A stretch of 64,000 nt of DNA from assembly GCA_032622095.1 (NCBI GenBank), contig CP136061.1:12787287-12851286 (forward strand). Reading direction: 5' to 3'. Shown here one piece after another: positions 23,940 through 61,827 of this stretch. This DNA comes from Siphonodentalium dalli. Its lineage: Eukaryota > Mollusca > Scaphopoda > Gadilida > Siphonodentaliidae. The translations under genes were made by a program, and so were the position numbers. The notes beneath the pieces are model-generated. The model worked only from the letters and a program-made list of their open reading frames with translations, did not search any database and was not told the DNA's origin. The first letter of the stretch is position 1. Every line of letters starts with the position of its first letter.

Positions 23940-24092
23940 ATGATGGAGTCCTTGAAATTATCTGAACATGAGCGCAAATATTATGATGAACTTTTCCACG
24001 CCTGTGACACAGAAAGTAACGGGAAGATAACTGGAGTACGGGCGACAGAACTTTTCCGTACATCTGGATTAACAAATGAAGTGCTACTGCAG
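23940..24092 (+). CDS. REPS1: REPS1/2-like, coding exon 1 (start codon, EH domain first half)
   Basis: This exon encodes residues 1-51 of a RalBP1-associated Eps15-homology protein, an adaptor that links Ral/RalBP1 signalling to clathrin-mediated endocytosis. The translation opens MMESLKLSEHERKYYDELF and runs through an EF-hand-like helix-loop (CDTESNGKI) to LTNEVLLQ, the pattern of the first EH domain at the N-terminus of vertebrate REPS1/REPS2. Two ATGs are adjacent (23940 and 23943). The exon ends CAG at phase 0, before GTTATT, a usable but weak donor. The frame continues for 12 meaningless codons past this point, as expected for intron read-through. No TATA box was identified upstream. 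Confidence 0.85.
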
Positions 24093-29551: not shown

Positions 29552-29675
29552 ATATCGGAGCTGTGTGGTGCTAAGCGGCTAGGTCATTTTGGGCGGAGTC
29601 AGTTCTACATAGCATTGAAGCTTATAAGCGCTGCCCAGACTGGGATTGCACCACGATTAGATGCTCTCAATACGG
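29552..29675 (+). CDS. REPS1: REPS1/2-like, coding exon 2 (EH domain second half)
   Basis: This exon encodes residues 52-92 plus one base. After the TTCTATTTTAG acceptor the reading is [19 protein letters not shown], then [12 protein letters not shown]. That is the diagnostic second half of the first EH domain of REPS proteins ([20 protein letters not shown]). It joins exon 1 in phase 0 to give LQ-ISELCG with no gap relative to the vertebrate pattern. It ends in phase 1 before a strong GTGAGT donor. The exon sits 186 bases beyond the end of the transposon 28055-29357, so that insertion spared the splice region. Confidence 0.92.
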
Positions 29676-31411: not shown

Positions 31412-31950
31412 CAGAGTGTTTCAAATAACTTTTAATATAGCCACCGGTAACTTATGATTGCTGTGTGAGTGTTTCATATAACTTTTAATACAGTCACCGG
31501 TAATTTATGATTGCTTGATTTTTTTGTGTGAGTGTTTCATATCACTTTTAATACAGTCACCGGTAACTTATGATTGCTGTGTGTGTGTTTCGTATAACTT
31601 TGAATACAGCCACTGGTAACTTATGATTGCTGTGCACGAGTGTTTCATATCACTTTTAATACAGCCACCGGTAACTTATGATTGCTGTGTGAGTGTTTCA
31701 TATCACTTTTAATACAGCCACCGGTAACTTATGATTGCTGTGTGAGTGTTTCATATAACTTTTAATACAGCCACTGGTAACTTATGATTGCTGTGTGAGT
31801 GTTTCATATAACTTTTAATACCACCGGTAACTTATGATTGCTGTGTGAGTGTTTCATATCACTTTTAATACTACCACCGGTAACTTATGATTGCTGTGTG
31901 AGTGTTTCATATCACTTTTAATACAGCCACTGGTAACTTATGATTGCTTT
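31412..31950 (+). repeat. 53-bp minisatellite abutting exon 3 acceptor
   Basis: About ten units of GTGTGAGTGTTTCATATCAC + TTTTAATACAGCCACCGGTA + ACTTATGATTGCT, with small indels. The last unit runs straight into TTATTTTTTGCAG, the splice acceptor of exon 3. Each unit contains TAACTTATGATTGCT, which could serve as a branch-point region. Confidence 0.9.
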
Positions 31951-32055: not shown

Positions 32056-32158
32056 GTGTAATTCCCTAAATAATCGACTCCTTAACCACTGCAGAATTAT
32101 GGATAATTTTTCAGGATTTAGTCGGAAATATGGCTTGTTGCCATTCATCGGAAAGCTG
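32056..32158 (+). mobile_element. mariner-like palindromic MITE, half copy
   Basis: GTAATTCCCTAAATAATCGA and onward to GGAAAGCTGTC matches the left half of the family best seen at 57054-57266. The right half is missing. Confidence 0.7.
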
Positions 32159-32894
32159 TCAACATCTAAACATGCAATGAAGAGATGTGCATACATTGTG
32201 AAAAACAATATTGGACACCAGGGAGGTTATATATTTGGCTACATCATTGCATGTCATGAATCTCTACTCTGCATTACTGCGTCCATAGAACTCATAATCC
32301 ACCAGTACAAATCATGGGAATTTGTCCATTTTATGACAGGGAAGTTTATAACATTGACAAAAACATTGCAGCTATAATATATTTCTTAGGTAATACCTGT
32401 TCTTTATTTAATAATTATGTACCGTATCCACAGTAAGTGTAGGTTCCAGCTTGAGATTGCATGCATTAAATAGAATACATGTAGGTCAATTTGTTGAGTC
32501 AAGTCTGATTTGCTTCCCTTACAATTGTAGAATTTCTTTCCGGGTAATCAATTCAATGTTTATTGCGATATTGACTCACAAACATGGCAAAAAATCATGC
32601 AATCTGGAGTTGGTACCATGGCCATACTGAGAAATAGATTACTAAGGAACAAGTACTAATAAAGAAATATATTCCCTGCTTTGTGTGCTGAATGCTATAG
32701 AGTTCCCCATCAGGTGGATCCCAGAATCTATCTTTAGTTTTATTGTAAATGTTTGGTCTAATTGTGCAACGAAACTTGACTTGTGGTCTGGCGAATGATG
32801 GTGGTTATCTTTCTGACCGTCCATCTGTCTGTGTTTCAATGTAAAAAGTATGAATATCTTGAATGAGTTTGAAAATCATATATCTGGAAAAAAG

Positions 32895-34283: not shown

Positions 34284-36560
34284 TTAGTGGACATTCAACA
34301 ACATCAGATGATTTAGATGTGCTTGGCTCATGGTTGATCTGAGATATGATTTTATCCATCGCAGTGTAGAAAATGAACGTTCACTGGAAGCATTTGTGGC
34401 AGGCATAACAGTTATGAGTTTTAGTACATTTACAACCTCGGAACCATGTAATCTAACGTCTTTATTTGCTTTACTGAAATATTGACTAATGTCATCGAAC
34501 TCAACGGGCCTCTCATCTTTGAAGTGTGTTGCCAAACTGTGTAGCTGGGTGCATAGTCTCGATATGTCCAAATCATCGCCGTAGAAGGACACAACTTCCT
34601 CAACGATGGCAGGATATTTTGGTGATTGAGGGCCACCGAACTCAATCAATCCATTGGCCGCGGATAATAACATATCCTGTAACTTTTTGTACATAACAAA
34701 ATCGGCCTGATCGATGCGATCGTTTATAGTGGAAGTTAAGTAATCGATTCCTTCGAAATATTCCCTCCTGTATATATCCGTGGGGGTTTTAGGGTCGTCA
34801 GCCGGTGTCGTTCCTACTTCATATCTGATCGGAACTCGTCTAGCTCTCGGCATAGTGGGTTCGTCTATGACATTATCTCCCAGACCCTTCTTCACCATGA
34901 TAACTTTTGCATAAAATAAATCAATATCACGATCAGTGCGGATGCTTCGCAAGGTCTTAACAGTTTTCTTCGCGATTTCCTGTCCCATTGCTGCAGATTG
35001 AGTTGGGTCTTGTAGTGCTTTGCTTAAGATGTCAGCATGCTTCAGTAACAGTACACCGAGCTGGACACCCCAGTAAAAGCTGAACTTGCTCATATGTGTC
35101 TGAACGCCTCAATTTTTTGCCTTCAACTCAGAGTCAGTGCAATCATCCAGATTTACATGTACCTCCCATAAGTCAAGCAATGTGTTATAATTATCCAGAA
35201 TGCTACATAGGCTGTCAGCACATACTGTCCATCGTGTTGGACACAGGACGCGAATACCTGGCGTACCAGGCGAGATTTCATTCTTGATTTTGACAAACAT
35301 TGCTTCGCTTTTTGGTGAGTTTTTCACAAGTTTGCAGATTTCGTTGGTGGTGTCCAAGCTGTCCGAAACACTTTTAACTAATTTCAGTGCATCATTGGCT
35401 GCCAAGTTCAAAATGTGTCCATAACAATGTGTATACAGAGCGCGTTTCTCCAACGTTTGGATCGTGGTCTTCACACCTTCCCTTTTACCCGACATATTGT
35501 TGGCACCATCATAACATTGCCCACGACACCGATTTATTGGGATCCTCAATCTAACAAGTACATCCTGCATTGCTGCGACTATTGTTGCGGATTTGATGTT
35601 GTCGAGCTGATAGAGGCCCACAAAGTCCTCGTGTGGTTGGAGAGTGTTGTCTACCCATCGCATGACGAATACAGCCTGTTGATTATGGGCCAGATCTGTT
35701 GCCTCGTCTGTCATGATACTGAAGAATTGCGCATTATGTATATCCGATGAAACATCATCGATCACCTCTGCCGCCAGAACTTTTAGTATTTCATTCTGTA
35801 TATCTTTTGACGTATATTTGTCCCTTTTTTTTGGCGAGCCAATTTATTATATCTGGATTATCATTATCACGGAGGTGTAAGAGTTGCATAAAATTGGAAT
35901 CCTCCTCCTTGCCATCACCCCTCAATGCTAAACCCTGCTGACCACAAAACTTTATATTTTCGAAAATTGTGTCTAACATTTCTCTTTTTTTAACTATTCT
36001 GGCTGAGTAGCTTGTGGACATTGTCATGCAGATATCGTGGGTATTTTTTGGGAGCGTTATCAGTCGCTCCTCTGCTTCCTTGTGACTATTCGATTGTTCG
36101 TGAGTTTTGAACGAAATGCATGCATCTTTCCTGTTATAGTAACCGCGGGTCATGAAAGCAGAATCAGTTTTGGTATTATTAAGTTTGTTCTCGTCCTTAG
36201 CTTGAATGCACGTAGCACACACCACCGTGTCATTTGCTTCAATGTAGCTTAGCCACGACCGCAAACCAAACCACTCTGGTTGAAATTTTCTACTACTTTC
36301 TTTTTTCCGAATTGTCTCATTGGGAATGGAAAGTTCGTTGGTTGGTTCAGAGACTTATAAGAATTCATTTGACTCATGATTTGCAAGGGCGTCAGACTCT
36401 GTGCAATGTTAATATGTTCATCTTCTGCACTGGCAGCGCTGGTATGAATTGTGGAAGAATCAACAGATTCTTCAACATCTTCGTGGTCGCTTTCAGAACG
36501 TTTTCTTTTGAAATTTTTAAAAATAGACATGTTTTCAAAAATTGCGCACGAAGCAAACAC
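34284..36560 (-). pseudogene. hAT-family transposase relic (TTF zinc finger, DUF4371-type)
   Basis: Four - strand frames in order encode one transposase. 36560-36249 is a charged N-terminus. 36264-35791 is a TTF-type zinc finger (CATC..SFKTHEQSNSH). 35765-35109 is part of the RNase H-like core (MTDEATD, then RGQCYDGANNMSG). 35093-34284 ends with the hAT dimerisation motif SSERSFSTLRWIKSYLRS. Three lesions separate them: a frame change at an A run near 36307, another at an eight-A run near 35829, and an in-frame TGA at about 35109. Intact relatives move DNA by cut-and-paste; this copy cannot make a whole protein. It lies antisense inside REPS intron 3. A likely right end, CAGGGCCGGC read on the - strand, is at 36852-36861; the left end was not found. 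Confidence 0.9.
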
Positions 36561-37090: not shown

Positions 37091-37532
37091 TGTATTATTG
37101 TTGTTATTATTTCGTCTTACATGTAAGTCAAAGGTTTCATACAAATGAATTAAACCTTGCCCCACTCTACTCCAGAAACGGGCGTATTATGCGACGCCCC
37201 GACGGCGTGCTCATGTTCCCTTCTTTATAGTTTCTATATCGGCTAATTTGCAGAAGATAAAATGCATAATCGAGGTGATAAATTGGTGAACATCACCAAC
37301 TTCAACTGGAAAACTTCAATCTTATTCTACATGTACATGTAGGTCTCGCACAGCAGTTGAGACCGAAGCAGATTTAGCCCCCCAGAGGATGAATTTGGCA
37401 ATGATAGCCCGCTTTGCGGGTTATCATCATGTAATTCACCCTCTGGGGACCTCATTCTGCAAATGACAGATACACTATTTCAATGCTTTTTTTTTTAGAG
37501 ATGCATATCAAAGGGTCAAGATTTTGCATGTA

Positions 37533-37673
37533 CAGTAATGCCCTAAATAATCGACTCCATAACCACAGTAGAATTATGGGTAACTTTTCAGGATTTAGTC
37601 GGAAATATGGCTTGTTGCCATTCATCGGAAAGCTCTCTTGTGGTTATGGAGTCGATTAATTAGGGCATTACTG
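37533..37673. mobile_element. mariner-like palindromic MITE, internally deleted
   Basis: TA precedes CAGTAATGCCCTAAATAATC and TA follows GGGCATTACTG. It is 141 bp against about 213 bp for full copies; most of the right half is lost. Confidence 0.8.
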
Positions 37674-37804
37674 TAGCAAGCAAATGAAATGTTAAAATAT
37701 GTTAATATTTTCTATCTTATCTAACAACACTTCCAACGACCAATAACCTCACTTTATTTGGAGAAATTTAATAACTCAGCCCTGGGAAATGAGGTAAAGA
37801 TGCC

Positions 37805-39278
37805 AGGCAATATGTGTAGGTGGAAGCAGGCAATATGTGTAGGTGGAAGCAGGCAATATGTGTAGGTGGAAGCAGGCAATATGTGTAGGTGGAAGCAGGC
37901 AAATATGTCTAGGTGGAAGCAGGCAATATGCCTAGGTGGAAGCATGAAATATGCCTAGGTGGAAGCAGGCAATATGTGTAGGTGGAAGCAGGCAATATGT
38001 CTAGGTGGAAGCAGGCAATATGTCTAGGTGGAAGCAGACAATATGTCTAGGTGGAAGCAGGCAATATGTGTAGGTGGAAGCAGGCAATATGTGAAGGTGG
38101 AAGCAGGCAATATGCCTAGGTGGAAGCAGGCAATATGTGTAGGTGGAAGCAGGCAATATGTCTAGGTGGAAGCAGACAATATGCCTAGGTGGAAGCAGAC
38201 AATATGCCTAGGTGGAAGCAGGCAATATGTGTAGGTGGAAGCAGGCAATATACCTAGGTGGAAGCAGACAATATGCCTAGGTGGAAGCAGGCAATATGTG
38301 TAGGTGGAAGCAGGCAGTATATGTAGGTGGAAGCAGGCAATATGTGTAGGTGGAAGCAGGCAATATGTGTAGGTGGAAGCAGGCAGTATATGTAGGTGGA
38401 AGCAGGCAATATGTGTAGGTGGAAGCAGGCAGTATATGTAGGTAGAAGCAGGCAATATGTGTAGGTGGAAGCAGGCAATATGCCTAGGTGGAAGCAGGCA
38501 CTATGTGATGGTGGAAGCAGGCACTATGTGATGGTGGAAGCAGGCAGTATGTGTAGGTGGAAGCAGGCAGTATGTGTAGGTGGAAGCAGGCAATATGTGT
38601 AGGTGGAAGCAGGCAGTATGTGTAGGTGGAAGCAGGCAGTATGTGTAGGTGAAATCAGGCAATATGTGTAGGTGGAAGCAGGCAATATGTGTAGGTGGAA
38701 GCAGGCAATATGTGTAGGTGGAAGCAGGCAGTATGTGTAGGTGGAAGCAGGCAGTATGTGTAGGTGGAAGCAGGCAGTATATGTAGGCGGAAGCAGGCAA
38801 TATGCCTAGGTGGAAGCAGGCACTATGTGATGGTGGAAGCAGGCAGTATGTGTAGGTGGAAGCAGGCAGTATGTGTAGGTGGAAGTAGGCAATATGTGTA
38901 GGTGGAAGCAGGCAATATGTGTAGGTGGAAGCAGGCAGTATGTGTAGGTGGAAGCAGGCAGTATGTGTAGGTGGAAGCAGGCAATATGTGTAGGTGGACG
39001 CAGGCAGTATATGTAGGTGGAAGCAGGCAATATGTGTAGGTGGAAGCAGGCAATATGCCTAGGTGGAAGCAGGCACTATGTGATGGTGGAAGCAGGCAAT
39101 ATGTGTAGGTGGAAGCAGGCAGTATGTGTAGGTGGAAGCAGGCAGTATGTGTAGGTGGAAGCAGGCAATATGTGTAGGTGGAAGCAGGCAGTATGTGTAG
39201 GTGGAAGCAGGCAGTATGTGTAGGTGGAAGCAGGCAATATGTCTAGGTGGAAGCAGGCAATATGTCTAGGTGGAAGCA
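37805..39278. repeat. 23-bp minisatellite, about 64 units
   Basis: Unit GGCAATATGTGTAGGTGGAAGCA with variants (GCAGTATATG, ATGCCTAG, ATGTCTAG, CACTATGTGATG) in interspersed blocks, some forming higher-order sets. Translation on the - strand gives PASTYTYCLLPPTHTACFHLH-type frames, which are not a protein gene: period 23 cycles through all frames. Confidence 0.92.
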
Positions 39279-41483: not shown

Positions 41484-42749
41484 CTATATCTCAAAATTTC
41501 AAACAGTGTATGATGTTCCAGGATTGTTATTGATAATAACCTTTCAACATTGAAAATATTTTTTGCAAAATTCTTTTAGAATTTGCCAAATGCTATCCCT
41601 GATAGTATTTTTTTTTTTTTCACAAAATTGAGTCTTATTTTGTGGTTTATCATATACAACAATAAACCAATCACTGAACAATAAAATGGTAGAAGGGTTG
41701 CTTCATCAGAAGGGCACATTACAAGAGGATTAGCTATGTAAACACCACCACCACACTAAATACGGTAATCCCTCACCCATGAATACTAATACTATCAGAT
41801 TAACAGCATCTTAACAAAGGTGTTAACTTTTCCTAGACCTTATAAAACACCACTAATATAATTATATTGTGACAGTTTCGTGAAATGAATGGTATTGATA
41901 GACCAATATTTTTCAACTTTCTTGAGGAATTAAAAAGTGACTTGGCCAAACTTTTGCCAAATGAAACTATTTTTTGCCAAATATGAATTATTTTTGCCAA
42001 TGGCAAATTTGGCAAGTGGCAGCGCGAATCTGGACCGACCTTACAGTACTGTACTCTCAGGCACCTGGAACAGAAATTCCCTCCATACAGTAGAACAGAA
42101 TGGCAGAAATGTTGAGCAAGAAAAATAAAATAAAAAAAATTAAATAAAATGACTTTACCCACTGCCCCTCCCCTGTTTTTTTTCCCGTTACCCTAAACAC
42201 AGTGTGTTATTTTATTTAACCTTAGTATCATGAAAATGATTGTCATATTGATATTTAGCGAAATTACATTTCATCATTCTGGATGGCTGATTATACCCCG
42301 GTATGAGGAATACTCATGAATGGCCCGATACCATTGTATTCCTATTAGGAAACGCGATATTACACCTGAATGAATATAATGACTAATGCTATTGTGTTCC
42401 TATTTAGTCAATAAGTTTCAACTGGAGATATCGTTAAGCTTGATTTTTGATGCTTGGTTGATTTTGGGAATATATAATATGTACTGGTAACTGCTGTGAA
42501 CATAATGGAAATAAGAAATGTGTTTATATCTTTACATGTACCATACCATATGTTATCGGGTAAGGATGAATGTTGTCATGAGATACATGTAGCACCTCAG
42601 TTAGACCACATTTCGGTTTAGACTTTAAACATGATTATAAATCAATAGACAACCAGATGATTGTGTGGTTAAAATGCATGTAATCATCAACTGGTATGAA
42701 CCTGTAACTTCCAGTACAATTGTGGTTGCAGAAAATTGATATACATGTA

Positions 42750-42962
42750 CATTAATGCTCTAAGTAATCGACCCCTTATCCACAGCAGAATTATGGGTAA
42801 CTTTTTAGGATTTAGTCGGAAATATGGCTTGTTGCCATTCATCGGAAAGCTCTCAGTGAGAGCTTTCCGATGAATGGCAACAAGCCATATTTCCGACTAA
42901 ATCCTGAAAAGTTACCCATAATTCTGCTGTCGTTAAGAAGTCGATTACTTAGAGCATTACTT
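42750..42962. mobile_element. mariner-like palindromic MITE, full length
   Basis: TA, then CATTAATGCTCTAAGTAATC; the two 100-bp halves are inverted copies meeting at CTCTCAGTGAGAG. The right end GAGCATTACTT precedes TA. It is followed after 8 bp by a second copy. Confidence 0.85.
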
Positions 42963-42970
42963 TACATGTA

Positions 42971-43170
42971 CAGTAATGCCCTGAGTAATTGACTCCTTAA
43001 CCACAGCAGAATTATTGGTAATTTCTCAGGATTTAGTCGGAAATATGGCTTGTTGCCATTCATCGGAAAGCTTTCCGATGAATGGCAACAAGCCATATAT
43101 CCAACTAAATCCTGAAAAATTGCCCATAATTCTACTGTGGTTAAGGAGTCCATTATTGAGGGCATTACAG
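42971..43170. mobile_element. mariner-like palindromic MITE at the array border
   Basis: TA then CAGTAATGCCCTGAGTAATT; centre GAAAGCTTTC; right end GGGCATTACAG at 43170. The TA that should be its target duplication (43171-43172) is the first two bases of the 15-bp array. Confidence 0.85.
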
Positions 43171-46100
43171 TATGTCCAATGATAGTATGTCCAATGATAG
43201 TATGTCCAATGATAGTATGTCCAATGATAGTATGTCCAATGATAGTATGTCCAATGATAGTATGTCCAATGATAGTATGTCCAATGATAGTATGTCCAAT
43301 GATAGTATGTCCAATGATAGTATGTCCAATGATAGTATGTCCAATGATAGTATGTCCAATGATAGTATGTCCAATGATAGTATGTCCAATGATAGTATGT
43401 CCAATGATAGTATGTCCAATGATAGTATGTCCAATGATAGTATGTCCAATGATAGTATGTCCAATGATAGTATGTCCAATGATAGTATGTCCAATGATAG
43501 TGTCCAATGATAGTATGTCCAATGATAGTATGTCCAATGATAGTATGTCCAATGATAGTATGTCCAATGATAGTATGTCCAATGATAGTATGTCCAATGA
43601 TAGTATGTCCAATGATAGTATGTCCAATGATAGTATGTCCAATGATAGTATGTCCAATGATAGTATGTCCAATGATAGTATGTCCAATGATAGTATGTCC
43701 AATGATAGTATGTCCAATGATAGTATGTCCAATGATAGTATGTCCAATGATAGTATGTCCAATGATAGTATGTCCAATGATAGTATGTCCAATGATAGTA
43801 TGTCCAATGATAGTATGTCCAATGATAGTATGTCCAATGATAGTATGTCCAATGATAGTATGTCCAATGATAGTATGTCCAATGATAGTATGTCCAATGA
43901 TAGTATGTCCAATGATAGTATGTCCAATGATAGTATGTCCAATGATAGTATGTCCAATGATAGTATGTCCAATGATAGTATGTCCAATGATAGTATGTCC
44001 AATGATAGTATGTCCAATGATAGTATGTCCAATGATAGTATGTCCAATGATAGTATGTCCAATGATAGTATGTCCAATGATAGTATGTCCAATGATAGTA
44101 TGTCCAATGATAGTATGTCCAATGATAGTATGTCCAATGATAGTATGTCCAATGATAGTATGTCCAATGATAGTATGTCCAATGATAGTATGTCCAATGA
44201 TAGTATGTCCAATGATAGTATGTCCAATGATAGTATGTCCAATGATAGTATGTCCAATGATAGTATGTCCAATGATAGTATGTCCAATGATAGTATGTCC
44301 AATGATAGTATGTCCAATGATAGTATGTCCAATGAAGTATGTCCAATGATAGTATGTCCAATGATAGTATGTCCAATGATAGTATGTCCAATGATAGTAT
44401 GTCCAATGATAGTATGTCCAATGATAGTATGTCCAATGATAGTATGTCCAATGATAGTATGTCCAATGATAGTATGTCCAATGATAGTATGTCCAATGAT
44501 AGTATGTCCAATGATAGTATGTCCAATGATAGTATGTCCAATGATAGTATGTCCAATGATAGTATGTCCAATGATAGTATGTCCAATGATAGTATGTCCA
44601 ATGATAGTATGTCCAATGATAGTATGTCCAATGATAGTATGTCCAATGATAGTATGTCCAATGATAGTATGTCCAATGATAGTATGTCCAATGATAGTAT
44701 GTCCAATGATAGTATGTCCAATGATAGTATGTCCAATGATAGTATGTCCAATGATAGTATGTCCAATGATAGTATGTCCAATGATAGTATGTCCAATGAT
44801 AGTATGTCCAATGATAGTATGTCCAATGATAGTATGTCCAATGATAGTATGTCCAATGATAGTATGTCCAATGATAGTATGTCCAATGATAGTATGTCCA
44901 ATGATAGTATGTCCAATGATAGTATGTCCAATGATAGTATGTCCAATGATAGTATGTCCAATGATAGTATGTCCAATGATAGTATGTCCAATGATAGTAA
45001 GTCCAATGATAGTATGTCCAATGATAGTATGTCCAATGATAGTATGTCCAATGATAGTATGTCCAATGATAGTATGTCCAATGATAGTATGTCCAATGAT
45101 AGTATGTCCAATGATAGTATGTCCAATGATAGTATGTCCAATGATAGTATGTCCAATGATAGTATGTCCAATGATAGTATGTCCAATGATAGTATGTCCA
45201 ATGATAGTATGTCCAATGATAGTATGTCCAATGATAGTATGTCCAATGATAGTATGTCCAATGATAGTATGTCCAATGATAGTATGTCCAATGATAGTAT
45301 GTCCAATGATAGTATGTCCAATGATAGTATGTCCAATGATAGTATGTCCAATGATAGTATGTCCAATGATAGTATGTCCAATGATAGTATGTCCAATGAT
45401 AGTATGTCCAATGATAGTATGTCCAATGATAGTATGTCCAATGATAGTATGTCCAATGATAGTATGTCCAATGATAGTATGTCCAATGATAGTATGTCCA
45501 ATGATAGTATGTCCAATGATAGTATGTCCAATGATAGTATGTCCAATGATAGTATGTCCAATGATAGTATGTCCAATGATAGTATGTCCAATGATAGTAT
45601 GTCCAATGATAGTATGTCCAATGATAGTATGTCCAATGATAGTATGTCCAATGATAGTATGTCCAATGATAGTATGTCCAATGATAGTATGTCCAATGAT
45701 AGTATGTCCAATGATAGTATGTCCAATGATAGTATGTCCAATGATAGTATGTCCAATGATAGTATGTCCAATGATAGTATGTCCAATGATAGTATGTCCA
45801 ATGATAGTATGTCCAATGATAGTATGTCCAATGATAGTATGTCCAATGATAGTATGTCCAATGATAGTATGTCCAATGATAGTATGTCCAATGATAGTAT
45901 GTCCAATGATAGTATGTCCAATGATAGTATGTCCAATGATAGTATGTCCAATGATAGTATGTCCAATGATAGTATGTCCAATGATAGTATGTCCAATGAT
46001 AGTATGTCCAATGATAGTATGTCCAATGATAGTATGTCCAATGATAGTATGTCCAATGATAGTATGTCCAATGATAGTATGTCCAATGATAGTATGTCCA

Positions 46101-49100
46101 ATGATAGTATGTCCAATGATAGTATGTCCAATGATAGTATGTCCAATGATAGTATGTCCAATGATAGTATGTCCAATGATAGTATGTCCAATGATAGTAT
46201 GTCCAATGATAGTATGTCCAATGATAGTATGTCCAATGATAGTATGTCCAATGATAGTATGTCCAATGATAGTATGTCCAATGATAGTATGTCCAATGAT
46301 AGTATGTCCAATGATAGTATGTCCAATGATAGTATGTCCAATGATAGTATGTCCAATGATAGTATGTCCAATGATAGTATGTCCAATGATAGTATGTCCA
46401 ATGATAGTATGTCCAATGATAGTATGTCCAATGATAGTATGTCCAATGATAGTATGTCCAATGATAGTATGTCCAATGATAGTATGTCCAATGATAGTAT
46501 GTCCAATGATAGTATGTCCAATGATAGTATGTCCAATGATAGTATGTCCAATGATAGTATGTCCAATGATAGTATGTCCAATGATAGTATGTCCAATGAT
46601 AGTATGTCCAATGATAGTATGTCCAATGATAGTATGTCCAATGATAGTATGTCCAATGATAGTATGTCCAATGATAGTATGTCCAATGATAGTATGTCCA
46701 ATGATAGTATGTCCAATGATAGTATGTCCAATGATAGTATGTCCAATGATAGTATGTCCAATGATAGTATGTCCAATGATAGTATGTCCAATGATAGTAT
46801 GTCCAATGATAGTATGTCCAATGATAGTATGTCCAATGATAGTATGTCCAATGATAGTATGTCCAATGATAGTATGTCCAATGATAGTATGTCCAATGAT
46901 AGTATGTCCAATGATAGTATGTCCAATGATAGTATGTCCAATGATAGTATGTCCAATGATAGTATGTCCAATGATAGTATGTCCAATGATAGTATGTCCA
47001 ATGATAGTATGTCCAATGATAGTATGTCCAATGATAGTATGTCCAATGATAGTATGTCCAATGATAGTATGTCCAATGATAGTATGTCCAATGATAGTAT
47101 GTCCAATGATAGTATGTCCAATGATAGTATGTCCAATGATAGTATGTCCAATGATAGTATGTCCAATGATAGTATGTCCAATGATAGTATGTCCAATGAT
47201 AGTATGTCCAATGATAGTATGTCCAATGATAGTATGTCCAATGATAGTATGTCCAATGATAGTATGTCCAATGATAGTATGTCCAATGATAGTATGTCCA
47301 ATGATAGTATGTCCAATGATAGTATGTCCAATGATAGTATGTCCAATGATAGTATGTCCAATGATAGTATGTCCAATGATAGTATGTCCAATGATAGTAT
47401 GTCCAATGATAGTATGTCCAATGATAGTATGTCCAATGATAGTATGTCCAATGATAGTATGTCCAATGATAGTATGTCCAATGATAGTATGTCCAATGAT
47501 AGTATGTCCAATGATAGTATGTCCAATGATAGTATGTCCAATGATAGTATGTCCAATGATAGTATGTCCAATGATAGTATGTCCAATGATAGTATGTCCA
47601 ATGATAGTATGTCCAATGATAGTATGTCCAATGATAGTATGTCCAATGATAGTATGTCCAATGATAGTATGTCCAATGATAGTATGTCCAATGATAGTAT
47701 GTCCAATGATAGTATGTCCAATGATAGTATGTCCAATGATAGTATGTCCAATGATAGTATGTCCAATGATAGTATGTCCAATGATAGTATGTCCAATGAT
47801 AGTATGTCCAATGATAGTATGTCCAATGATAGTATGTCCAATGATAGTATGTCCAATGATAGTATGTCCAATGATAGTATGTCCAATGATAGTATGTCCA
47901 ATGATAGTATGTCCAATGATAGTATGTCCAATGATAGTATGTCCAATGATAGTATGTCCAATGATAGTATGTCCAATGATAGTATGTCCAATGATAGTAT
48001 GTCCAATGATAGTATGTCCAATGATAGTATGTCCAATGATAGTATGTCCAATGATAGTATGTCCAATGATAGTATGTCCAATGATAGTATGTCCAATGAT
48101 AGTATGTCCAATGATAGTATGTCCAATGATAGTATGTCCAATGATAGTATGTCCAATGATAGTATGTCCAATGATAGTATGTCCAATGATAGTATGTCCA
48201 ATGATAGTATGTCCAATGATAGTATGTCCAATGATAGTATGTCCAATGATAGTATGTCCAATGATAGTATGTCCAATGATAGTATGTCCAATGATAGTAT
48301 GTCCAATGATAGTATGTCCAATGATAGTATGTCCAATGATAGTATGTCCAATGATAGTATGTCCAATGATAGTATGTCCAATGATAGTATGTCCAATGAT
48401 AGTATGTCCAATGATAGTATGTCCAATGATAGTATGTCCAATGATAGTATGTCCAATGATAGTATGTCCAATGATAGTATGTCCAATGATAGTATGTCCA
48501 ATGATAGTATGTCCAATGATAGTATGTCCAATGATAGTATGTCCAATGATAGTATGTCCAATGATAGTATGTCCAATGATAGTATGTCCAATGATAGTAT
48601 GTCCAATGATAGTATGTCCAATGATAGTATGTCCAATGATAGTATGTCCAATGATAGTATGTCCAATGATAGTATGTCCAATGATAGTATGTCCAATGAT
48701 AGTATGTCCAATGATAGTATGTCCAATGATAGTATGTCCAATGATAGTATGTCCAATGATAGTATGTCCAATGATAGTATGTCCAATGATAGTATGTCCA
48801 ATGATAGTATGTCCAATGATAGTATGTCCAATGATAGTATGTCCAATGATAGTATGTCCAATGATAGTATGTCCAATGATAGTATGTCCAATGATAGTAT
48901 GTCCAATGATAGTATGTCCAATGATAGTATGTCCAATGATAGTATGTCCAATGATAGTATGTCCAATGATAGTATGTCCAATGATAGTATGTCCAATGAT
49001 AGTATGTCCAATGATAGTATGTCCAATGATAGTATGTCCAATGATAGTATGTCCAATGATAGTATGTCCAATGATAGTATGTCCAATGATAGTATGTCCA

Positions 49101-49242
49101 ATGATAGTATGTCCAATGATAGTATGTCCAATGATAGTATGTCCAATGATAGTATGTCCAATGATAGTATGTCCAATGATAGTATGTCCAATGATAGTAT
49201 GTCCAATGATAGTATGTCCAATGATAGTATGTCCAATGATAG
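43171..49242. repeat. 15-bp satellite array, 405 units, nearly pure
   Basis: Unit TATGTCCAATGATAG, head to tail. The only deviations seen are loss of TA at 43500, loss of one T at about 44334 and a T-to-A change at about 44999. With the three missing bases restored the length is exactly 405 x 15. A partial unit (TATGTCC) closes the array before TTTTGACTG. The unit lacks a stop in five of six frames, which yields the spurious frames of 280 to 2,130 codons. Each unit contains one CCAAT word. Confidence 0.97.
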
Positions 49243-49325
49243 TATGTCCTTTTGACTGTTAGCTGACGAATATGTCGTTTAATCACAAGAAAACACAGGT
49301 TAAGTTTGAATAATGTGTCGGTCAT

Positions 49326-49825
49326 TAATCCGTGAAACTTAACAGCTCTGGTCATTATAGACCCTATTGGACAGAATACACCAAATTGTATCTTGTTTTG
49401 GACTTGGTCAATGCACAAACACCTGAGATATCAGTTTTTGTCCCCCGAATTTATTTTTTTTGGGGAAATATTAAAACAGCCGGTGTTCGTCCATCCCACC
49501 GTGCGAAAAGTTTCCAGATGAGAACTTTATTTTGGGCTATCGGATTGAAATCAAATTTTGTATGTCAGTTTTCAACTCAAATAACAGTTTAAGTTTGAAT
49601 ATGGTTTCGGTCCACCCATTTTTGCTGGAATTATGGCCCCTTTTCTACTTAGAATATATCCGTCCGTCCATCCGGAAAGTTTCTGGATGGGAACTTTATT
49701 TTGGACTATCGGATCAAACCAAATTTGGTATGTGAATTTATCACCTCAAAACACATGTCAAGTTCGAATATGGGTTTTGCCAGTTTTGCCAGAGTTATGG
49801 CCCTTTTTCGACCAGCATCAATAAA
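49326..49825 (+). repeat. dispersed GAATTATGGCCCC repeat, tandem copies
   Basis: Repeated words AAGTTTGAATATGG, GGAATTATGGCCCC, GGAAAGTTTCTGGATGGGAA, CCAAATTTGGTATG and AGAGTTATGGCCCTTTTTCG match 36862-37090. The frames here are repeat translation. Confidence 0.6.
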
Positions 49826-56994: not shown

Positions 56995-57053
56995 GTAAAT
57001 TAACCCTTTAACTTGAGGAATGATTGTTGATTCGCTTACATTTTCATGGAGTA

Positions 57054-57266
57054 CAATAATGCCCTTAATAATCAACTTCTTAACCACAGCAGAATTATGA
57101 GTAATTTCTCAGAATTTAGTCGGAAATATGGCTTGTTGCCATTAATCAGAAAGCTCTCACTGCGAGCTTTCCGAAGAATGGCAACAAGCAATATTTCCGA
57201 CTAAATCCTGAAAAATCACCCACAATTCTGCTGTGGTTAAGGAGTCGATTATTTAGGGCATTACTG
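57054..57266. mobile_element. mariner-like palindromic MITE, full length
   Basis: TA at 57052-57053 and 57267-57268; ends CAATAATGCCCTTAATAATC and the inverse of CAGTAATGCCCTAAATAATC. The two halves pair over about 95 bp each around CTCTCACTGCGAG. CAGT ends and a TA target suggest Tc1/mariner ancestry. Confidence 0.85.
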
Positions 57267-57331
57267 TAGGTGTAAGGTGGTCTGACATTATGTTTGGAAC
57301 CCGAAATCATTGTCAACATAATCTCAAAAGT

Positions 57332-60394: not shown

Positions 60395-60483
60395 TTGAAG
60401 GGAATATCTCCTGTGTACTATTATTCCGCTCCTTACTATTATTTGGATACAAGAGTAACCCTTTCCACACTAATACTCATTAA

Positions 60484-60820
60484 CCCTTTACCCAACAGAA
60501 GGGCCCTGTGCCAATGCATTCTCTTATATATGCGAGTCGACCATAGGTTGCCTCGCATATATAAGAGAATGCATTGGCTTAACACATAAAAATTTTTTTT
60601 AGGCCAATGCATTCTCTTATATATGCGAGGCGACCTATGGTCGACTCGCATATATAAGAGAATGCATTGGCACAGGGCATAATTGTAACCATCACAATGT
60701 GGTCGATGAACCGGTTCCAATGATATCCATATTTGTATGATTCTATTGAGACAGACCGAAGATAATTTAGGCTGTTGCAGCTTTATTTGGCCGTTTTTGG
60801 CCGGTTTGTTGGGTAAAGGG
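60484..60820. mobile_element. piggyBac-like TTAA hairpin MITE, copy 4
   Basis: TTAA at 60480-60483 and 60821-60824. It has two facing palindromes with a short A/T spacer, then the CCAATGATATCCATATTTGT arm and GGCCGTTTTTGGCC. It has the same orientation as copies 2 and 3. Confidence 0.88.
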
Positions 60821-61031
60821 TTAACGAGTAGTTTCCTTAGGAAAATGTTCTGATAGGTCTTTGTTGAACTTATTATCTGAACGTTTCCCTCCAACGAATA
60901 TGAATCATTCAGCACTATTACTTGTATACTGTTTTGCACATGTCCGTCTGTCCATCCGTCCTTCTGATGTCTGTTCATGTCATAACTTGAACAATAGTGC
61001 TCGGATTTCAATGAAGTGTTATTCATTTTAG

Positions 61032-61269
61032 AACAATGTCAGCATAGATGCCAGCTCTCCTCCTGTTAAGATTGCGAGTCCTCCACTGTCCCCGAGTGCC
61101 AAGGAGAACCGACCAGCGCTGGCCAATCAACCGACATCTCCACCAGTCCACCCTCAACCTCAACCGGTGCAAATAAATAATCAACCAAGCTCAAATCTAC
61201 CAGGATATGTAAACTCTCATAAAGACGTCGATGACTGGCAGTTTCCCAGTGACGCAGATGATACGAATG
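61032..61269 (+). CDS. REPS1: REPS1/2-like, coding exon 6 (Ser/Pro-rich linker)
   Basis: Residues 166-244 plus one base. The acceptor is TTCATTTTAG and the donor GTATGT. It starts NNVSIDASSPPVKIASPPLS, then PSAKENRP..LANQPTSPPVHP, and ends DVDDWQFPSDADDTN. Multiple SPP/TSPP motifs are candidate proline-directed phosphorylation sites in the linker between the EH domains, as in other REPS proteins. Codon use is unbiased toward repeats and the frame is open over all 79 codons. The gene continues beyond the window: the second EH domain and the C-terminal RalBP1-binding coiled coil are not seen. Confidence 0.85.
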
Positions 61270-61386
61270 GTATGTACATGATCAATCTCTTTGAAAAGCC
61301 GACGAAAATCCTATATCGGATGTACGTCTCTAGTACTCTCTATTAAAATCCTATATCGGATGCACGTCTCTTGAACTCTCTATTAA

Positions 61387-61778
61387 CCCTTTACCCAACA
61401 AACCGGCCAAAACCGGCCAAATAAAGCTTCAACAGCCTAAAATATCTTCGGTCTGTCTCAATAGAACCATACAAATATGGATATCATTGGAACCGGCTCC
61501 TTGACCACATTGTGATAGTTACAGTTATGCCCTGTGCCAATGCATTCTCTTATATATGCGAGTCGACCATAGGTCGCCTTGCATATATAAGAGAATGCAT
61601 TGGCCTGAAACAAATCTTTTTTTAACACTTTTTACCATTTTTTCTTACAATCTTTAACAATTTTATAATTTTTAATGTGTTAAGCCAATGCATTCTCTTA
61701 TATATGCGAGGCGACCTATGGTCGACTCGCATATATAAGAGAATGCATTGGCACAGGGCCCTTCTGTTGGGTAAAGGG
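61387..61778. mobile_element. piggyBac-like TTAA hairpin MITE, copy 5
   Basis: TTAA at 61383-61386 and 61779-61782; very similar to copy 1 over its full 392 bp and in the same orientation. Both palindromes are complete. Confidence 0.9.
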
Positions 61779-61827
61779 TTAAAATTAGGTTCTGTTTTGA
61801 AGGGATTCCCTCCATTTCATTAATGAC

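Follow-up and report, generated by a model that had tools for sequence, protein, structure and literature searches.

How could 405 nearly identical copies of a 15-bp unit come to stand at one place in the genome of the scaphopod Siphonodentalium dalli, and do they serve any function there? The question is raised by positions 43171–49242 of a 64,000-nucleotide stretch of assembly GCA_032622095.1 (contig C1, CP136061.1, positions 12,787,287–12,851,286), referred to here as the window, in which the unit TATGTCCAATGATAG is repeated on the forward strand. Our analysis indicates, with a probability of roughly 85%, that the array is a young, single-locus minisatellite, neutral and recently expanded, which formed where it now stands, within an intron of a REPS1/2-type gene.

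Both exact unit counting and Tandem Repeats Finder (TRF) were used to delimit the array. It consists of 402 exact copies of the unit and three deviant units, and a partial unit of 7 nt extends its right end to 49249; the TRF call was 43169–49249, with a period of 15, 405.6 copies and 99% matches. The perfect runs comprise 22, 54, 44 and 282 units, with one deviant unit between each pair of runs. These are the 23rd unit (43501–43513, 13 bp, TA lost), the 78th (44324–44337, 14 bp, one T lost) and the 123rd (44998–45012, 15 bp, one T to A substitution), all given on the + strand. Head-to-tail units within roughly 7–100 bp define a minisatellite, and 15 bp × 405 falls within this range. The identity of each position to its counterpart in the next unit was 99.55% in the array, versus 91.6% in a neighboring array with a 23-bp unit and 83.4% in one with a 28-bp unit (97% for the latter as scored by TRF, which permits indels). 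The original prediction, that of a near error-free 15-bp array of 405 units with three deviations, purer than the adjacent minisatellites, was thus confirmed to the base. The array is also longer and cleaner than all other arrays of the window, of the sampled loci described below and of the 30 kb following the window.

Near-perfect arrays are hard to size and the length of this one is known from the assembled sequence only, so that its length or purity might be a product of assembly, through collapsed or over-expanded repeats or through polishing of the consensus. Such an artefact is considered improbable, because neighboring arrays in the same assembly retain many unit variants, which indicates that consensus making did not generally erase variation, because the three deviant units are not homopolymer changes, and because 6 kb can be spanned by a single long read.

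The genomic copy number of the unit was determined in the whole assembly (2,226,750,531 bases in 9 contigs), and the counts apply to this one assembly, in which gaps are read as N. An exact dimer of the unit had 398 matches in the 2.23 Gb, all 398 of them inside the window, and a dimer with up to three mismatches in 30 bases had 401, again with all 401 in the window. The exact 15-mer was found 410 times in the assembly and 402 times in the window, and a reversed control pattern twice. Because every tandem copy found sits in one 6-kb array, the array is a single locus in this assembly and not satellite DNA: the unit occurs neither at many loci nor in very long blocks, as would be the case for a satellite, and it occupies one locus, where a minisatellite occupies one or a few. 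The alternative that the same array is present at thousands of loci is excluded for the assembly by the confinement of the dimer matches to the window.

Directly to the left of the array, two palindromic miniature inverted-repeat transposable elements (MITEs) were identified from their inverted repeats, family matches and termini across copies, with no strand assigned to either. Copy 1 (42748–42964, 217 bp) has the ends TACATTAATGC and GCATTACTTTA, and copy 2 (42969–43172) has the ends TACAGTAATGC and GCATTACAGTA; the inverted arms of the pair are located at 42735–42855/42857–42977 and 42969–43070/43071–43172. The TA that closes copy 2 (43171–43172) is at the same time the first two bases of the array. 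The family occupies at least 39 further distinct places among the matches listed, and the family termini TACAGTAATGC and GCATTACTGTA were present in many of the 31 copies inspected. The terminal inverted repeats, the many similar copies, the TA at both ends and the existence of uninterrupted sites identify the elements as MITEs with a TA target, which probably belong to the Tc1/mariner-like superfamily.

The MITE pair breaks a copy of an interspersed repeat, F (a family of about 350 bp), the left half of which is located at 42590–42747 on the + strand. Other copies of F display the same site with and without a MITE. In the copy at C9:62,266,652 (L020), a MITE occupies the same TA and is followed by TATGTC, the sequence after the MITE reading TATGTCATAGAAATG. 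In copy L092 the MITE-free junction reads ATATACATGTATGTCATAG, which is the left flank of the window, ATATACATG, joined to the first bases of the array, TATGTC, and in copy L113 the MITE-free junction reads ACATGTATGTCATAG. TATGTC was found at the junction in 14 of 26 F copies, versus 0.75% of shuffled segments. The count covers 26 of 27 copies, L091 being omitted as the L020 MITE-bearing site again; in six of these 26, a MITE match lies in another part of the stretch analysed. The F consensus was built from 24 copies, and L087 was retrieved and left unused. The most likely origin of the unit's opening six bases is thus the F sequence at the MITE target site.

The ages of the MITEs and of the array could be compared through their mutations. 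The two arms differ at 7 of 108 sites in one MITE and at 10 of 102 sites in the other (6.5–9.8%), and 23 of 204 aligned sites separate MITE 1 from MITE 2. In the array, by contrast, about 6.07 kb contain a single substitution (95% interval 0.025–5.6 events), besides two small deletions. Provided that the arms were alike at insertion, the MITE insertion therefore lies tens to hundreds of times further back than the common origin of the array units. Very recent expansion or active homogenisation had been predicted from purity, and recent expansion is supported by the single locus and the almost error-free units.

The following history is proposed. Repeat F would have been inserted first, and two tandem palindromic MITEs would then have entered it at a TA, in the context ACATG-TA-TGTC; these two steps are supported by the comparison with other copies. 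Much later, about 15 bp to the right of the MITE pair, starting with the TATGTC of F, would have been duplicated and amplified to about 405 units through replication slippage and/or unequal exchange, with growth fast enough that almost no mutations accumulated. The array would now be spliced-out, neutral DNA, probably variable in length; how the units were amplified, that they are neutral and that their number varies are all inferred.

Several observations weigh against this history or restrict it. For the origin of the seed in F, the evidence is the match of 6 of its 15 bases at the expected position. Derivation of the whole unit from F was considered and rejected: the unit is no closer to the F consensus than chance (2132 of 5000 shuffles were as good), and only the position-specific TATGTC was used. 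Likewise, the right flank of the array shares GTTAGCT with F, yet its similarity to F is equalled by 1414 of 5000 shuffles, and it was rejected as a continuation of F. As neither comparison is significant, the remaining nine bases of the unit could derive from outside F. Furthermore, the dating presumes that the arms of each MITE were identical at insertion, instability and length variation are predictions made from a single assembly, and an error in the assembled length is possible, within the low probability assigned above to an assembly artefact as a whole.

The right flank itself (49250–49435, + strand) includes a match to a short dispersed repeat at 49271–49323; outside this match it matched only itself among the best 40 candidates. 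Another TATGTC is located at 49271–49276, at the start of the short dispersed repeat and 21 bp past the right end of the array. It could be the second short direct repeat that is required by the slippage model, or it could be due to chance; the model, that of Haber and Louis, is summarised in PMC6947457. From about 49435 to 49812, the start of a copy of a dispersed repeat was observed, which has internal tandem units of about 165 bp and is found at many places.

The position of the array, which starts exactly at the MITE target duplication, raises the possibility that hairpins of the MITE pair stalled replication, that repeated template switching produced the units, and that such MITEs seed arrays generally. 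Within the window, a large array stands no more than about 130 bp from three of the four MITE sites, a pattern attributable to the abundance there of both MITEs and arrays. The flanks of MITE loci elsewhere were therefore compared with those of control places. MITE loci were examined with 1 kb on each side, and 38 of the 39 listed beyond the window were used; the one left out, C4:62628824, has a score identical to that of the match at C4:62764650. The main comparison included 34 of the 38, and L002, L004, L005 and L008 were added later (none of these four with an array of at least five units). The 36 controls were taken about 100 kb from 36 of the 39 MITE places, one on the lower side and the rest on the higher, with three omitted as duplicates or near neighbors, and five controls that contain a MITE were kept.

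Arrays of at least five units with a period of 7–100 were present within 1 kb at 6 of the 38 MITE loci versus 5 of the 36 controls (Fisher p 1.0), and tandem arrays of at least three units made up 4.8% of the sequence at the 34 MITE loci versus 3.4% at the 36 controls. No array of at least five units abutted the element at any of the 38 MITE loci, after the best row of each overlapping set had been kept and rows inside the MITE removed. Copies of the MITE are very common, as reflected by the match in 5 of 36 controls, and the MITEs predate the array by far. General seeding of arrays by MITEs was accordingly rejected as unsupported by the flank comparison, and the explanation as a whole is unlikely, although seeding by the MITEs is possible for the TATGTCCAATGATAG array alone.

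A more specific version of the recent expansion may be drawn from the deviant units. The three differ from one another and each variant is present once, which means that no variant-bearing unit multiplied later; such privacy is what a burst predicts. All three are among the first 123 of the 405 units (one-sided chance about 0.028), a clustering that gives a hint, and no more, that newer units lie toward the right end. It is conceivable, though rather doubtful, that the array originated in very few steps, perhaps in a single burst, from a DNA end or stalled fork beside the double palindromic MITE, and that it has become a polar, hypervariable locus of the germline, in which the older units, those with variants, lie toward the MITE and new ones make up the right end; it would then be a larger-unit counterpart of the expanded simple tandem repeats (ESTRs) of the mouse.

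The location of the array in an intron, which had also been predicted, is borne out by exons recognised on both sides. Upstream, on the + strand, EH domain 1 of a REPS-type gene is split over two exons: its first half is encoded by a coding exon part at 23940–24092, with an ATG at 23940, and its second half by an exon at 29552–29675 with AG/GT borders; the latter is the last exon recognised ahead of the array. Jointly they encode an EH domain (Pfam E 1.6e-12), whose closest solved structure is the Eps15 EH domain, with no REPS chain among the matches listed. Downstream, the first candidate exon is a proline-rich one at 61032–61269 (+ strand), with AG/GT borders and an open frame, for which a Pfam search gave no match. 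Just past the window, open frames at C1:12,851,333 and 12,852,873 specify the initial portion of a second EH domain, and with these frames joined by eye the best solved matches were 1fi6 (REPS1, E 1e-16) and 1iq3 (RALBP1-interacting protein, E 1.8e-15). Two EH domains, the second of them nearest to REPS1/POB1, characterise the gene as one of the REPS1/2 type. Because the EH1 exons are upstream and the candidate proline-rich exon and the EH2 exons are downstream, the array is situated in an intron between the EH1 and EH2 exons, on the sense strand of the gene.

If the exons at 29552 and 61032 are parts of one transcript, at least one small unrecognised exon must separate them, since the former ends in phase 1 and the latter is read in phase 0. 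No such exon was found between 29675 and 61032 using a few peptide motifs, and either of the two introns that it would create could contain the array. The candidate exon at 61032–61269 is bracketed by inverted repeat arms at 60588–60824 and 61383–61619 (237 nt, 95% complementary) and by a second pair at 60480–60595 and 61667–61782 (116 nt, 97% complementary), and these arms could pair in the transcript. Inverted repeats that pair around an exon can favor exon skipping or circular RNA.

The composition of the unit invites functional explanations. It holds CCAAT and a perfect WGATAR word, the motif of GATA factors, at a regular spacing of 15 bp, so that a protein-binding or decoy array for NF-Y, or for GATA factors via TGATAG, might be supposed, as had been proposed for NF-Y. 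Words of this kind arise by chance, CCAAT on either strand in 3.4% of permuted units and WGATAR in 6.2%. The NF-Y consensus prefers purines ahead of CCAAT, a preference that the unit fits poorly, since in TGTCCAATGAT a T stands directly before CCAAT (GT before and GAT after), and the NF-Y footprint is wider than 15 bp, so that not every unit could be occupied. In addition, the youth of the array accounts for its purity. A binding or decoy role is accordingly judged very improbable, and the NF-Y suggestion found little to sustain it.

Open reading frames of up to 2134 codons run through the array and five of the six frames of the unit are open, which might be taken to indicate a repetitive protein. 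With a period of 15 bp, the same five codons are read over and over, so that any stop-free unit gives an endless frame, and five or more open frames were obtained in 23% of permuted units. Each of the two deletions also changes the frame, and no exon evidence was seen, which makes the probability of a coding role negligible. Unusual folding was also absent from both strands of the array (DNA z +3.15, with 200 of 200 shuffles folding at least as well; RNA z −0.67), and Rfam gave 0 matches at the gathering threshold across the window. Neutrality appears to be the most likely state of the array.

Tandem arrays (period 7–100, at least three units) occupy 19% of the window (10.5% without the TATGTCCAATGATAG array), 14% of the next 30 kb and 3.4% of the 36 controls, a contrast that is rough because the control pieces were short (2.2 kb) and the window was picked for its array. 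The next-largest copy numbers are 64 units (37804–39278) and 53 units, the latter downstream of the window. There, in C1:12851287–12881286, the minisatellite-dense stretch continues, with the 53 units of 31 bp and with pure 16-bp and 32-bp arrays. Other whole or partial MITE copies in the window were located at 32058–32161, 37527–37675 and 57051–57274, and two of them are about 110–130 bp from the large minisatellites at 31414–31948 and 37804–39278. Pieces of a hAT-type transposase gene were also observed on the minus strand at 34287–35843, comprising the hAT dimerisation domain (PF05699, 34287–35108) and DUF4371 (PF14291, 35112–35843).

The array belongs to a known kind of minisatellite and is unusually long and clean; no systematic literature search for the exact unit was made. 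Mouse ESTRs have units of 4–10 bp in arrays that are long and homogeneous. The array resembles the ESTRs Ms6-hm and Hm-2 in being a long tandem array and in its homogeneity, with a longest perfect run of 282 units, and differs from them in its 15-bp unit. ESTRs are highly mutable, as control mice displayed about 0.03–0.07 mutant bands per band in the data given in PMC3419097. In Drosophila virilis, the Tetris foldback transposon and the TIR-220 satellite are described as an array tied to a palindromic element related to a MITE (PMC4079207); the association of a tandem array with a palindromic DNA element is shared, whereas the Tetris repeats, as portrayed in that source, are internal to the element and satellite-like, and the array in S. 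dalli is outside the MITE and at one locus. Minisatellites that grew from pieces of transposable elements (TEs) are well described, with examples such as mouse Ms6-hm (from MaLR), (GGCAGA)n (from SINE B1) and human Alu-derived arrays among those covered in PMC6947457 and PMC9659126. In the TATGTCCAATGATAG array, too, a short unit may have grown in place out of part of a dispersed repeat; in contrast to these examples, only 6 of its 15 seed bases are traceable.

As a functional element the array has nothing to show, and its interest is of another kind. Part of the earlier state of the site is recoverable, from F through the MITE pair to the array, so that the flanks give a time scale for the birth of a minisatellite and the speed of its growth. 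Should its length vary, the array would be of use as a marker and for testing how purity is maintained in such arrays.

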